Program-made: the position numbers and the translations under genes
In this document: positions 24,511 through 32,239 of the stretch, piece after piece
Layout of the letters: every line of letters starts with the position of its first letter
Numbering within the stretch: the stretch's first letter is position 1
Assembly (NCBI GenBank): GCA_016288795.1
Contig: JAEELI010000004.1
Location: forward strand, 1 to 46,926
Direction of reading: 5' to 3'
Length of the DNA stretch: 46,926 nt
DNA from: Caryophanales bacterium
Lineage (GTDB): Bacteria > Bacillota_I > Bacilli_A > RF39 > UBA660
The notes under the pieces: model-generated
Databases searched by the model: none
What the model saw: the letters and a program-made list of their open reading frames with translations, nothing else
Told to the model about the DNA's origin: nothing

Positions 24511-24535
24511 AGCTCTAGTTTATTAAACTAGAGCT
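24511..24535. terminator. Bidirectional terminator between P-ATPase and clpC-like genes
   Basis: Perfect 11-bp stem AGCTCTAGTTT / AAACTAGAGCT with an ATT loop, flanked by T-rich sequence on both sides. The clpC-like stop codon lies in it. Confidence 0.9.
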
Positions 24536-26469
24536 TTATTATTATAAACTTCAAGGACTTCGTCCACTAGGTTTTTTAATTCATTAGAATTTATAGAAAC
24601 ACTTTCAAAACCTATGGGGTTTTTGCTTTCTTCATCACTAATAAATATAAAACTATTATTAAAATATATTGTATTTCCTTTATTATCTTTAATATGCCCT
24701 TCCTTAAGTATTTCTTTAATTAATTCTTTAATACTTGAGTGAGCATAGTTATAATTATCAAAATGAATTATACTAAATAAATTATTATTAAGAGAATTTA
24801 AAATATGATTATCATTATAACCAATGTAACCTTGGGTAGTGCCAATTAATTTACTTATATCTATAGATGAAGAATACTCTTTCAAATCTATTCCTATATA
24901 ATTAACTTTAGGGAATAAATTGGCTATGTCTTTTATAAGTTTTTCTTTATTATTTCCATTTATGTATATTCTTAAAAAACATTTATGATTATATAATTGT
25001 TTTTTTATTAGTTTAATGATTCTATTTGCAAATTCATCATTAAAAGTAGTTTCATCCAAGAACTTTAATTTTTGTTTATTAAAGATAATATTTGTTTTAT
25101 TTTCTAAAGTTTCAAGAACATCTTCTTCTATTATAATTTCTTCTTTATTTTCATGACGATGGATTTCTTCTTTAATAATTAATTCCTTATTATAGATATC
25201 TAATGCTTTTTCATAATCTTTATTTTTTATATATCCATCTTTTACTTCTTTTAATTCTAATAATCTTTTATAAGAGGCCTTTTTGAATTCAGTATAATTA
25301 CTCTTTGCTCTTGTTCGAGAACAAACTGAATCCAAAAAGTCGATGGCTTTATCAGGGTTCTTTTTATTATGAATAAAGTTTTCTGTTACATTTAAAATAC
25401 TATCTATAATATTATCCGATATACAAACGTTGTGATGTTTTTCGTATTCACTCTTTACTTTCAAAAGAATTTCTTTAGTTTCAGTGTAATTAGGTTCTAA
25501 AACATTAACAACTTCAAATCTACGCATTAAAGCTTTATCAGGATAAAAATATTTTAAATATTCATCCTTAGTAGTGGCACCGATACACTTGATTTTTCCT
25601 CTAGCCAAGGCTGGTTTCAGGATATCTCCAGCAGTTATCGCTCCCTCTGCTCCTCCTGCTTTGACCATAGAGTGAATTTCATCTATAAATATAATATAAT
25701 TGTCATTATTTTCTAATTCTTTAACTATTTTAGTTAGTTTTTCTTCAAATTCACCTCGATATTTAGTTCCTGAAACCAGCTCTGACATTTCCAAAGAAAC
25801 TATTTTAGTATTTATTAATTTTTCTGGAACATCTTTTTTATTAATTCTTCTAGCTAATTCTTCCACTATTGCTGTTTTTCCTACTCCTGCTTCACCAATT
25901 AAAATAGGATTATTTTTTTTCTTTCTTAAAAGAGTCTCAATAATTGCTTCGATTTCTCTATCTCTATTAATTATCATTTCATCGTCTAAAACTGTATCAT
26001 TCAAAACAGTTCCAATCTCTAATAATGATAACTTTTGATTAGATCCTTTTTTATTCTGATTTATTTCTTCATATAGAGAATCAATATCAATATTCATTCC
26101 AATTAATAATCTAATTCCTATTCCTTCACCCTCTTCAAATAGAGCTAAGATTAAATCTTTGGTCGTAACAATGCCATTATTATTTTCCTTAGCGTTTTCT
26201 AATGCACTTTCAACGACTCTTTTAAGCAACGGAGTCCAAAGATTTATATCCAAGGTTTCTTGAGAAGAACCTACAACATTGATTAATTCTTTTCTAAATT
26301 TTTGATATGTTAAATTATATTTTTGAAAAAACAAAGCAATGTCATCATCACACTTTAAAATAGCCAAGAGCAAATGCTCTGTTCCTACATAAGGATGATG
26401 TAATAAATATCTTTCTTTTTCAGCTTCTTTAAAAATTGCACTTATACTCGAACCAAAATTATTAAACAT
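24523..26469 (-). CDS. clpC: ClpC-like AAA+ unfoldase with degenerate second ATPase domain
   Basis: 648 residues against about 810 for ClpC. Clp_N repeats (1-140, HHPYVGTEHLLLAIL) and a complete D1: Walker A GEAGVGKT (192-199), Walker B IIFIDE (259-264), IGATTKDEY and ALMRRFE. A short M-domain follows (about 395-440). D2 is clearly related but has lost catalysis: the Walker A position reads INGNNKEK, and the Walker B position IIHFDNYN. The pore loop GYIGY (547-551) and an IGF tripeptide (619-621), the usual ClpP-contact loop, remain. The D2 small domain is absent. It probably unfolds substrates with one active ring. ATG 26469 has GGGAG at 8 bases and is preferred over 26484. No ctsR/mcsAB neighbours and no CtsR or CIRCE box are seen. 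Confidence 0.88.
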   Translation of the reverse strand: MFNNFGSSISAIFKEAEKERYLLHHPYVGTEHLLLAILKCDDDIALFFQKYNLTYQKFRKELINVVGSSQETLDINLWTPLLKRVVESALENAKENNNGIVTTKDLILALFEEGEGIGIRLLIGMNIDIDSLYEEINQNKKGSNQKLSLLEIGTVLNDTVLDDEMIINRDREIEAIIETLLRKKKNNPILIGEAGVGKTAIVEELARRINKKDVPEKLINTKIVSLEMSELVSGTKYRGEFEEKLTKIVKELENNDNYIIFIDEIHSMVKAGGAEGAITAGDILKPALARGKIKCIGATTKDEYLKYFYPDKALMRRFEVVNVLEPNYTETKEILLKVKSEYEKHHNVCISDNIIDSILNVTENFIHNKKNPDKAIDFLDSVCSRTRAKSNYTEFKKASYKRLLELKEVKDGYIKNKDYEKALDIYNKELIIKEEIHRHENKEEIIIEEDVLETLENKTNIIFNKQKLKFLDETTFNDEFANRIIKLIKKQLYNHKCFLRIYINGNNKEKLIKDIANLFPKVNYIGIDLKEYSSSIDISKLIGTTQGYIGYNDNHILNSLNNNLFSIIHFDNYNYAHSSIKELIKEILKEGHIKDNKGNTIYFNNSFIFISDEESKNPIGFESVSINSNELKNLVDEVLEVYNNKALV

Positions 26470-26532
26470 ATAATATTCTCCCATTAAATTCTATGATTAT
26501 TATGGAGCATTTATAAGTTTTTTAATCAATAA

Positions 26533-29870: not shown

Positions 29871-30476
29871 CTAAATCTTATACATTTTTGTTTTATTCTT
29901 TGTTGCAACGTAAGCACCACCAGCAAGTAATGCAATTGTTCCAATTGCTACAAATGGTAGTGAAACACCAGTTTTTGGACATTCATTATTATATTCTTCT
30001 TCAGTTACTGCTTCTCCATTAATAAAGTATCCATCTTTATTATAAACACATTTACCAGTTGGAGTTTTTTCTTCATTTTTAGGTGTATCTGGAGTTACTG
30101 ATTCTGTTTTACCATCTAAATCAATTAAAACTCTACAATCGGTTTCACCAGATGGTTTGTAAGAAAATTTGAATAAATCAACTTCTCCTGTATCAGTTCC
30201 AGTTATTGTAAATGTATATGTGCTACCACTTTTAGTAACTGATGAAACTATCCAGCTACCAGTTGAAACTATAGAAGTTTCATCGATAGTAGCGCCACCT
30301 TCTTCAGTTAATGAAACAATAATACTTGTGCTATCAGTAACTGCACCAATACTACATGTCTTTGAACCATCACTGCCAGTAGTACAACTATTAAACATTT
30401 CTTCCACTTCAGCATGAACACCTAATGGAATAATTAATAATAATGCCAATAAAATCAAACCATAAAACTTTTTCAT
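29871..30476 (-). CDS. Secreted protein with CPKTG sorting signal
   Basis: 201 residues. Signal peptide (1-22, ending GVHA) and a beta-rich extracellular region with Cys at 31, 41 and 114. The C-terminal cell-wall sorting signal has the motif CPKTG (166-170), a hydrophobic span (171-191) and the basic tail KNKTKMYK. This is an LPXTG variant with Cys in the first position. The divergent sortase gene at 30602 is the obvious candidate enzyme. The short segment CVYNKDGYFINGEAVTEEEY just before the signal repeats a 'KDGYFxNG' pattern seen in other surface proteins. The ligand or function is unknown. Confidence 0.8.
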   Translation of the reverse strand: MKKFYGLILLALLLIIPLGVHAEVEEMFNSCTTGSDGSKTCSIGAVTDSTSIIVSLTEEGGATIDETSIVSTGSWIVSSVTKSGSTYTFTITGTDTGEVDLFKFSYKPSGETDCRVLIDLDGKTESVTPDTPKNEEKTPTGKCVYNKDGYFINGEAVTEEEYNNECPKTGVSLPFVAIGTIALLAGGAYVATKNKTKMYKI

Positions 30477-30601
30477 TTTCTTCTCTCCTACTCTTATTAT
30501 GTCTTAATTATATCATAAAAATACAAAATTCAACATTTATTTGATTTTTTTTTGTTATTTTATGTCAAATTGTGTTATTATATATAATAAGGAGACTAGA
30601 T

Positions 30602-32239
30602 ATGAAGAAGATTCTTTTACAATTTAAAGATGACAAATTATTCTTTTCTATCAAAAAAAGACTTAACACAGAACAGAAAAGTCTAATTAATACTAATGTC
30701 ATTAGTCAAAACGAACTAGTCTTTAGTGACGAATACATGGTTCAAAACTCTAAGATTGTTCACAACTTTATTAAAGAACTTATTAATGATATGTCAATTA
30801 ATACTGTAGTGATTAAAGAATCAGAAATTGCTACTCTAGTTCTAAAACTAATTAATAACATAAGTAAAATTAAAAATTTATATCTACTTGAGGAATCAAT
30901 ACTAACATATCATATATGTTCAGCCATAATAAAATGTTCATCAATTAAATATGTTTCTTTATATAATATACCAACCTATTTATTAGAAATGCTGGATAAA
31001 GAAGATATTATTGTTGATTCTCGTAACGAAATGTTATTTTTAAGTCCATTTATGAAAGATAATAACCTCGATAAATTTTCGACTTTATATTATAAGACAT
31101 CAATATACTTAAATTTACCACTTTCTAAAGAAGATGAAGATGATTTTATATCATTTATAAATATAAACAAGTATTTAAGAACTATATATTTAAATAAAGT
31201 TCAGAAAAGCGATATAGAATATTTATTAGAAATCCTCTATAAGAAGAAATTAAAAAACATAAAAATATATATTGAACAAGATTTGAATAATATAGAAACA
31301 ATAGAATATCTAAAGAAAATTAATAAACATAATAGTAAAGTTAATGGTATTCAATTTAAAATAGATTATTCTAAAAAATATTTGCAAGATAACTTAATGA
31401 ATCAAATTCACTTAAATACAATAAAAATGTGTATAATCGTTTCTTTAATGATAGTTGGTTCAGTAATATTCTATGTATTTATATCTAATTACACTTCGAT
31501 GCAGAAAGTTGAAGATATTAAAAAAGATATTAATGAAACCATTGCTGAATATAAAGAAGAATTAAAACAAGAAGAAAAAAATGTAATTGAACAAACCGAT
31601 GAAACAGATGAACCAACAGATATTATTAATCAAGAAGAAACACCTGTAGAACCACAAAATAAGCCACCGGTTATGACAAATGATGATGTAGCGGGACTTC
31701 TATCAATAAATGAGGATACAGTTGGTTGGTTAAAAGTAAATAATACTAATGTTGATTATCCTGTTGTTCAAGCAAGTGATAATGAGTTCTATTTAAAAAG
31801 AAACTTTAAAAAGAATAATGACAATAGTGGTTGGATATTTATGGATTATCGTGCTGACGCAGTTAATTTAAGTCAAAACACTATTATATTTGGCCATAAT
31901 ATGTATTATAGTGGAGTTATGTTTGGAACTTTATATAAAGTTAAACAAGCTAATTGGTATAGGGATCCTGAGAATCAAATTATAGAATTTGATTCACTAT
32001 ACGAGAAAATGAAATGGAAAATATTTTCCATTTATACTCTACCTAATACTAATGATTATTTGATATCAGATTTCAGTTCTGACGATAAATATCAAGAGTT
32101 CTTAAATCTAATAACAGGAAGAAGTATTTATACATTTAATACTCCTGTATCAGTTCAAGACAAAATACTTACACTTTCAACTTGTTCAAACAATGGCAAA
32201 AATAGACTTGTAATTCATGCAGTCTTACTAGAAAACTAA
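30602..32239 (+). CDS. Class B-type sortase with large cytoplasmic N-terminal domain
   Basis: 545 residues. The catalytic domain (about 370-545) has the class B layout: VGWLKVNNTNVDYPVVQ, FGHN with His432, TLSTC with Cys528, and Arg535. It is preceded by a membrane helix (about 274-294) and an extracytoplasmic acidic coiled linker (298-355). The first 273 residues are cytoplasmic and of unknown fold, with repeated Ile/Leu strands (IKNLYLL, IKYVSLY, LRTIYLN, LKNIKIY) that could be leucine-rich-repeat-like. Normal sortases have only a few cytoplasmic residues. ATG 30602 follows AAGGAG; the upstream in-frame ATG has none. It is divergent from the CPKTG substrate gene and next to TasA-like genes. 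Confidence 0.85.
   Translation: MKKILLQFKDDKLFFSIKKRLNTEQKSLINTNVISQNELVFSDEYMVQNSKIVHNFIKELINDMSINTVVIKESEIATLVLKLINNISKIKNLYLLEESILTYHICSAIIKCSSIKYVSLYNIPTYLLEMLDKEDIIVDSRNEMLFLSPFMKDNNLDKFSTLYYKTSIYLNLPLSKEDEDDFISFININKYLRTIYLNKVQKSDIEYLLEILYKKKLKNIKIYIEQDLNNIETIEYLKKINKHNSKVNGIQFKIDYSKKYLQDNLMNQIHLNTIKMCIIVSLMIVGSVIFYVFISNYTSMQKVEDIKKDINETIAEYKEELKQEEKNVIEQTDETDEPTDIINQEETPVEPQNKPPVMTNDDVAGLLSINEDTVGWLKVNNTNVDYPVVQASDNEFYLKRNFKKNNDNSGWIFMDYRADAVNLSQNTIIFGHNMYYSGVMFGTLYKVKQANWYRDPENQIIEFDSLYEKMKWKIFSIYTLPNTNDYLISDFSSDDKYQEFLNLITGRSIYTFNTPVSVQDKILTLSTCSNNGKNRLVIHAVLLEN

Follow-up and report, generated by a model that had tools for sequence, protein, structure and literature searches.

INTRODUCTION

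ClpC of the Bacillota (S. aureus, with its MecA/ClpC/ClpP structure, and B. subtilis) is described in PMC12521514 as carrying a Clp_N domain, a full D1 ring, a folded D2 large domain, and a ΦGF loop past sensor 1, and the tip of that loop in the S. aureus protein docks into the H-site of ClpP; the G672D/F673D exchange is reported there to abolish the interaction. The two rings are of different clades: D1 is a classic AAA ring, and D2 falls in the HCLR clade together with HslU, ClpX, and Lon (PMC9663308, PMC2674469). The D2 ring is described as the principal motor of ClpA, with D1 as an auxiliary (PMC9663308), and AAA2 as the main motor of ClpB, where its block costs 7.6-fold in substrate-stimulated ATPase activity (PMC6593972). 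A machine that works with D1 only should therefore be weak. The small domain of D2 matters as well: M. tuberculosis ClpC1 without it is reported to lose both oligomerization and chaperone activity (PMC3527473). The need of class I Hsp100 proteins for two rings, and whether the weaker D1 can power a protease by itself, are usually probed with engineered mutants.

Here, we describe a ClpC-derived protein encoded in the window, by which we mean the whole 46,926-nucleotide stretch of DNA that was analyzed. It shares the Clp_N domain, the full D1, the folded D2 large domain, and the ΦGF loop with the Bacillota proteins but has no D2 Walker A, Walker B Glu, arginine finger, sensor 2, or small domain. 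Its features set it apart from the canonical two-motor ClpCs, both the D2 motor set and the small domain being absent. From comparison of its sequence with those of its relatives, we consider it probable that this is a ClpP partner in which D1 would be the only ATP-driven ring, D2 having been demoted to a docking collar and finally, in one genus, to a tail. The hosts of these ClpCs are tiny-genome gut bacteria. We note that the relatives are metagenome bins, mostly of uncultured Bacilli, some of them from goat and roe deer samples.

RESULTS AND DISCUSSION

Domain Architecture of the Window Protein

The gene lies on contig C7 of a metagenome bin of 979 kb (22 contigs, 93% complete). The best matches of its product are ClpC proteins, the closest solved chain being S. 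aureus ClpC (E 1.1e-105), and Pfam assigns Clp_N, AAA, AAA_lid_9, and a partial AAA_2. With the ClpA model NCBIfam TIGR02639, the protein scores 349.9 bits, which is under the curated cut-off of 993.15 bits. The in-frame ATG of residue 6 (26469) is the start favored by the relatives' consensus MFNNFG... and is probably the true one. A first-pass annotation had placed the gene at 24523-26469 and counted residues from this second ATG, so that 5 must be added to its numbers to obtain ours. The features below are given in the 653-residue numbering.

24523..26484, (-) strand: clpC-derived gene, 653 aa, or 648 aa if the start is the ATG at 26469
26035..26469, (-) strand: Clp N-terminal domain, approximately residues 6-150 (PF02861, 63.2 bits, cut-off 20.7)
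25873..25896, (-) strand: D1 Walker A GEAGVGKT (197-204), intact by sequence comparison
25747..25770, (-) strand: D1 pore loop GTKYRGEF (239-246), intact by sequence comparison
25675..25689, (-) strand: D1 Walker B FIDEI (266-270), intact by sequence comparison
25519..25524, (-) strand: D1 arginine-finger pair RR (321-322; RRF at 321), intact by sequence comparison
24940..24963, (-) strand: former D2 Walker A, now INGNNKEK (508-515), without GxxxxGK[ST]
24817..24831, (-) strand: D2 pore loop GYIGY (552-556), kept, as in 32/32 genus members
24748..24765, (-) strand: former D2 Walker B, now HFDNYN (574-579), with the catalytic Glu replaced by Asn
24607..24615, (-) strand: IGF tripeptide (624-626), putatively ClpP-docking, in a loop with pLDDT <50 (621-632)
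24526..24606, (-) strand: C-terminal remnant of 27 residues in place of the D2 small domain

The first-pass annotation had called D1 intact, and we find its Walker A, pore loop, Walker B, and RR pair all present. Walker A, Walker B, and the RR finger of D1 are likewise intact in 149/149 family sequences checked. This set consists of 155 orthologs minus five that are cut by contig edges (L060, L068, L091, L119, and L161) and L156, which was left out here and then counted as a one-ring ClpC. In three of the edge-cut sequences (L068, L091, and L119), GF is found at its expected position; L060 and L161 stop short of it.

The earlier description of D2 holds as well: Walker A (INGNNKEK), Walker B (HFDNYN), and the small C-terminal domain are gone, and GYIGY (at 552) and IGF (at 624) remain. 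The arginine finger and sensor 2 are also absent. No remnant of the small domain was recognized in the three reading frames downstream of the gene, and ClpB_D2-small does not appear among the 25 of 26 Pfam matches listed for the protein. A chance origin of the IGF motif is ruled out by shuffling and by its constant spacing. Shuffled tails would be expected to yield ∼2.1 GF hits across 19 degenerate proteins versus the 19 observed, and GF sits 40-46 residues past the former Walker B in 19/19 sequences (the window protein and 18 degenerate proteins from other genera), the window value of 44 residues matching the relatives. Within D2, no columns of this set are better kept than those of GF (G in 19/19 and F in 18/19, with one Y).

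An AlphaFold2 monomer model of the window protein, made from a 41-row alignment, has a mean pLDDT of 83, with most of the D2 large domain well predicted. Residues 150-653 of the model match S. aureus ClpC in the MecA/ClpC/ClpP structure (Z 29.0, rmsd 3.6 Å, 454 aligned), so the D2 fold is probably retained. Residues 621-632 around IGF fall below a pLDDT of 50, and the docking loop is disordered in the model. D2 of the window protein thus probably keeps both its fold and a flexible docking loop.

Elsewhere in the window, a sortase-like protein is encoded at 30572-32239 (+), with a C-terminal TLSTC motif that we take to be a sortase feature. Adjoining it at 29871-30476 (-) is a short surface-protein-like ORF whose C-terminus consists of PKTG, a hydrophobic segment, and a basic tail.

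Erosion of D2 across the Family

The family sample comprised one genome per genus (145 genomes) and same-genus replicates, which together gave 170 two-domain ClpC orthologs for scoring within one GTDB family. The D2 Walker B Glu is kept in 105 and lost in 65, the latter being 32 members of the window genus (g1) and 33 sequences from 19 other genera. Among these 65, Walker A persists in 50, the pore loop in 51, the arginine finger in 1, and sensor 2 in 1, and ΦG[F/Y] is found in every one. The D2 alignment across the lineage, which had been proposed as a check of the original reading, shows the catalytic Glu lost in 65 sequences and ΦG[F/Y] in place in 170/170.

Within the window genus, a search for clpC in 38 genomes returned 33 full or nearly full matches and one C-terminal fragment (G156), with none in 4 genomes. 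The catalytic Glu of D2 Walker B is missing in 32/32 scorable members, as are the arginine finger and sensor 2, and the D2 pore loop and ΦGF are present in 32/32. GxxxxGK[ST] of D2 Walker A is present in 31/32, the window organism being the sole exception. The first-pass annotation had proposed that selection kept substrate gripping and protease docking while dropping ATP hydrolysis. The loss of hydrolysis motifs and the retention of docking (ΦG[F/Y] in 170/170) stand, but gripping is not general, as the pore loop is kept in 32/32 within the genus and in 19/33 degenerate D2s outside it. Because part of the latter have lost the pore loop, only docking is universally kept.

One-Ring Forms in Genus g59

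Nine of 18 genomes of genus g59 carry a one-ring ClpC of 441-474 residues, in which D2 is wholly gone; to our knowledge, these would be the smallest ClpC-type ClpP partners known. In G058, a clean frame of 464 residues contains the N domain, D1, and a linker and ends in ...KPIGYTAEISYT before the stop, and the frame downstream is an unrelated peptidase-like one. The G058 gene (L156) was thus ruled out as a frame-broken gene, since it is an intact one-ring ClpC with a separate gene behind it. A frame with an HETGH zinc-metallopeptidase-like motif lies directly downstream of the one-ring ClpC in L156/L310.

D1 Walker A, the pore loop, RRF, and Walker B are present in all nine one-ring proteins (Walker B of L315 was read by eye), and 9/9 terminate in ΦG[F/Y] with 1 to 8 residues behind it (IGFKTN, LGFKIN, IGFKPS, IGFKTN, FGFCS, IGFKIC, IGFN, IGFKLP, and IGYTAEISYT). 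The chance of finding ΦG[F/Y] in the last 15 residues is 1-2% per protein, values that we do not multiply because the nine proteins are related. ClpP occurs in the same nine g59 genomes as the one-ring ClpC and in 0/9 of the others (Fisher p 4e-5, ignoring relatedness).

ClpP and Other Candidate Unfoldases

The original reading depended on a ClpP being encoded in the genome, and one is found, a 190-residue protein with the catalytic triad. Across the 145 family genomes, ClpC and ClpP occur together in 121, neither in 17, ClpP only in 5 (G011, G055, G078, G095, and G124), and ClpC only in 2 (G116 and G121), for a Fisher p of 7e-16 that ignores relatedness. Losses of the two proteins go together in this family. 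The 17/145 genomes with joint loss include several small ones, such as G036 (98% complete). ClpP is present in 71/74 genomes with a degenerate or one-ring ClpC (18/18, 14/15, 30/32, and 9/9), and no ClpP match was found in G148, G158, and G194 despite their degenerate ClpC. In the window genus, it occurs in 35/38 genomes and in 30/32 of those scored for ClpC, where G148 and G158 are the ones without it. The ClpP triad and residues L49, Y63, I91, and L115 (S. aureus numbering), which we take to form the docking pocket, are invariant in 50/50 ClpPs (52 tried).

No second complete clpC was found in the genome, as the first-pass annotation had also presupposed. An AAA_2 search of the window genome returns the gene described here, a ClpB-type protein as the other two-AAA protein, and one weak hit below the cut-off, in an ORF resembling a secretion-type ATPase. 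The ClpB-type protein (L002 1207-3327, (-) strand) has 706 aa and both AAA rings, without an N domain or a GF loop. GF stands at the docking position in 0/9 ClpB paralogs. ClpB is distinguished by two active rings and no ΦGF loop; the window protein has IGF and an inactive D2. ClpX was dismissed as an alternative ClpP partner, as no match in any of the 145 family genomes exceeds the TIGR00382 cut-off (370.75 bits). In the window genome (G000), the best match to the ClpX model has an E of 1.6e-6, and the weaker ClpX-like proteins described below are not found there. The window gene is the only candidate ClpP unfoldase found in its bin, because the ClpB-type protein has no GF loop and G000 has no ClpX-like protein.

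We also observed a ClpX-like AAA protein of 481 aa in G123 (L064 949-2394), with GPTGVGKT, VLDEFD, and IGF, which falls under the ClpX cut-off. Such a match (E <1e-25) occurs in dozens of the 145 genomes, and eight with the match have none to ClpP (G033, G043, G057, G082, G115, G125, G131, and G137). The protein is perhaps a divergent unfoldase that acts with or without ClpP.

Proposed Mechanism

We infer that the N domain and D1 would form a hexamer in which the KYRG pore loops of D1 pull the substrate. D2, folded but hydrolysis-dead, would serve as a passive collar whose GYIGY pore lets the chain through, and the six flexible IGF loops would plug into hydrophobic pockets on ClpP. In this way D1 alone may drive unfolding and ClpP-coupled degradation, perhaps of less stable proteins. 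One genus would have taken a further step by dropping D2 altogether, so that D1 is followed by the docking tripeptide at the C-terminus. What appears to count against a one-motor model is that the window protein is without the small domain that ClpC1 requires (PMC3527473); since ClpC1 needs this domain to oligomerize, the hexamer of the window protein would have to be held by its N domain and D1.

The same architecture might instead dock without real unfolding, a D1-only machine opening the ClpP gate and feeding in loose or adaptor-delivered chains while stable proteins are not unfolded. This is unlikely, though it is the alternative that we take most seriously: the strict retention of the D1 motifs and pore loop argues for a working motor, against which stand the auxiliary role of D1 beside the principal D2 motor in ClpA (PMC9663308) and the 7.6-fold loss of substrate-stimulated ATPase activity on AAA2 block in ClpB (PMC6593972).

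Repeated Loss of the D2 Motor

In both trees built from the N domain and D1, the window protein clusters with two-motor, full-length ClpCs from its own family, which identifies it as a ClpC ortholog by descent. The quick tree (127 rows, including 10 of the 32 genus members) needs 13 changes of D2 state and the careful tree (75 chosen rows) 14 (bootstrap 13-14). The minimum drops to 6 and 5 changes, respectively, when only strongly supported branches are counted. As for order-level sampling, all rows come from the same family and no outgroup was added. Genus g9 is mixed, with intact (G231 and G281) and degenerate (G008, G194, and G268) members that the trees do not group. Terminal N+D1 branches are longer in the degenerate lineages (median 0.54 versus 0.25), and the exact counts of changes are therefore uncertain. 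As part of the explanation that we favor, and with the same good confidence, the D2 motor would have been lost many times in the family.

The long branches fit a retuning of the N domain and D1, and they also fit relaxed constraint. The latter bears on whether the gene is simply decaying, with the leftover motifs as relics, a reading to which the faster evolution of D2 than of D1 would also lend itself. The closest genus pairs indicate otherwise. The D2 dN/dS is ∼0.05-0.10 in these pairs (dS roughly 0.15-0.7) and that of D1 ∼0.007-0.056, and on these values D2 is under purifying selection, with a constraint looser than that on D1. The free drift of D2 among close relatives that would have undercut the original reading is thus not seen. 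Moreover, GF is kept in 65/65 degenerate D2s and 9/9 one-ring forms while neighboring columns vary, and D1 is intact throughout. We regard decay as very improbable.

Walker A is missing in 15 Glu-less orthologs and in 0 Glu-bearing ones, so that the order of loss in D2 looks nested, with Glu going before Walker A. Asn takes the place of the Walker B Glu in 27/33 degenerate D2s outside the genus and in 31/32 inside it (Asn background 12%), and by this comparison the replacement is convergent. Such an Asn might allow ATP to stay bound, as in Walker B mutants, and 50/65 degenerate D2s keep GxxxxGK[ST] with the Glu lost; D2 could then bind ATP without hydrolysis as a nucleotide-locked structural ring, like NSF-type second rings. 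Walker A, however, is lost in the window protein and 14 other degenerate forms, and the one-ring proteins have no D2 at all, making this even less probable than decay. An assembly or frameshift artefact has a negligible chance of accounting for these data: the sequences do come from metagenome bins, and 5/155 of the first-collected orthologs are cut by contig edges, but it is contradicted by the same Walker B loss in 32/32 genus members from separate bins and by downstream frames without a recognizable small-domain remnant.

Comparison with Known Systems

Among the open-access titles and abstracts searched, we found none describing a ClpC whose D2 is degenerate or absent. The D1-driven, D2-docked arrangement that we prefer would reverse that of ClpA, in that the principal-motor ring D2 is given up and the auxiliary D1 is kept. 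Evolution would here have repeated one experiment, always giving up the ring that dominates in ClpA and keeping the docking tripeptide, and the intact, half-eroded, and one-ring forms of a single family are ready-made constructs with which to measure the contribution of D2.

Other double-ring AAA machines have an inactive ring, namely, D2 of NSF and D1 of Pex1/Pex6, and there too one ring drives and the other is structural. These are not protease partners, however, whereas here the inactive ring bears the docking loop, and relatives use that same ring as their main motor. Proteasomal ATPases of the PAN type carry C-terminal HbYX tails, to which we liken, as our own assumption, the C-terminal tripeptide of the one-ring forms. 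Both end in a short tripeptide that probably docks to a protease barrel; in g59, the tripeptide takes the form ΦG[F/Y] and ClpP would be the barrel. On balance, and somewhat more cautiously than for the favored explanation as a whole, the sequences lead us to propose a one-engine class of ClpC in which the D1 ring alone would power ClpP-coupled degradation, D2 would have been lost independently about a dozen times, and the g59 endpoint, a true one-ring ClpC, would dock by a C-terminal ΦG[F/Y] tail convergent with HbYX.

The single-ring apicoplast ClpC of Apicomplexa (Babesia microti) is also a ClpC cut to one ATPase ring, as described in PMC4184790. It keeps AAA_2 and ClpB_D2-small and is without the N-terminal part, whereas the family studied here keeps the N domain and D1 and is thus its mirror image (PMC4184790); in the window protein, Clp_N and D1 are present and the small domain is absent. 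ClpX likewise has one working ATPase ring that docks ClpP via an IGF loop, as is predicted here. Its ring, however, is of the HCLR (D2-like) clade, whereas the ring kept here is the classic-AAA D1 (PMC9663308, PMC2674469). The first-pass annotation saw in the window protein an intermediate between ClpC and ClpX, a view that we do not share: ClpX-like rings belong to the D2 clade, and because it is this ring that has been discarded and the other that has been kept, these proteins move away from ClpX.
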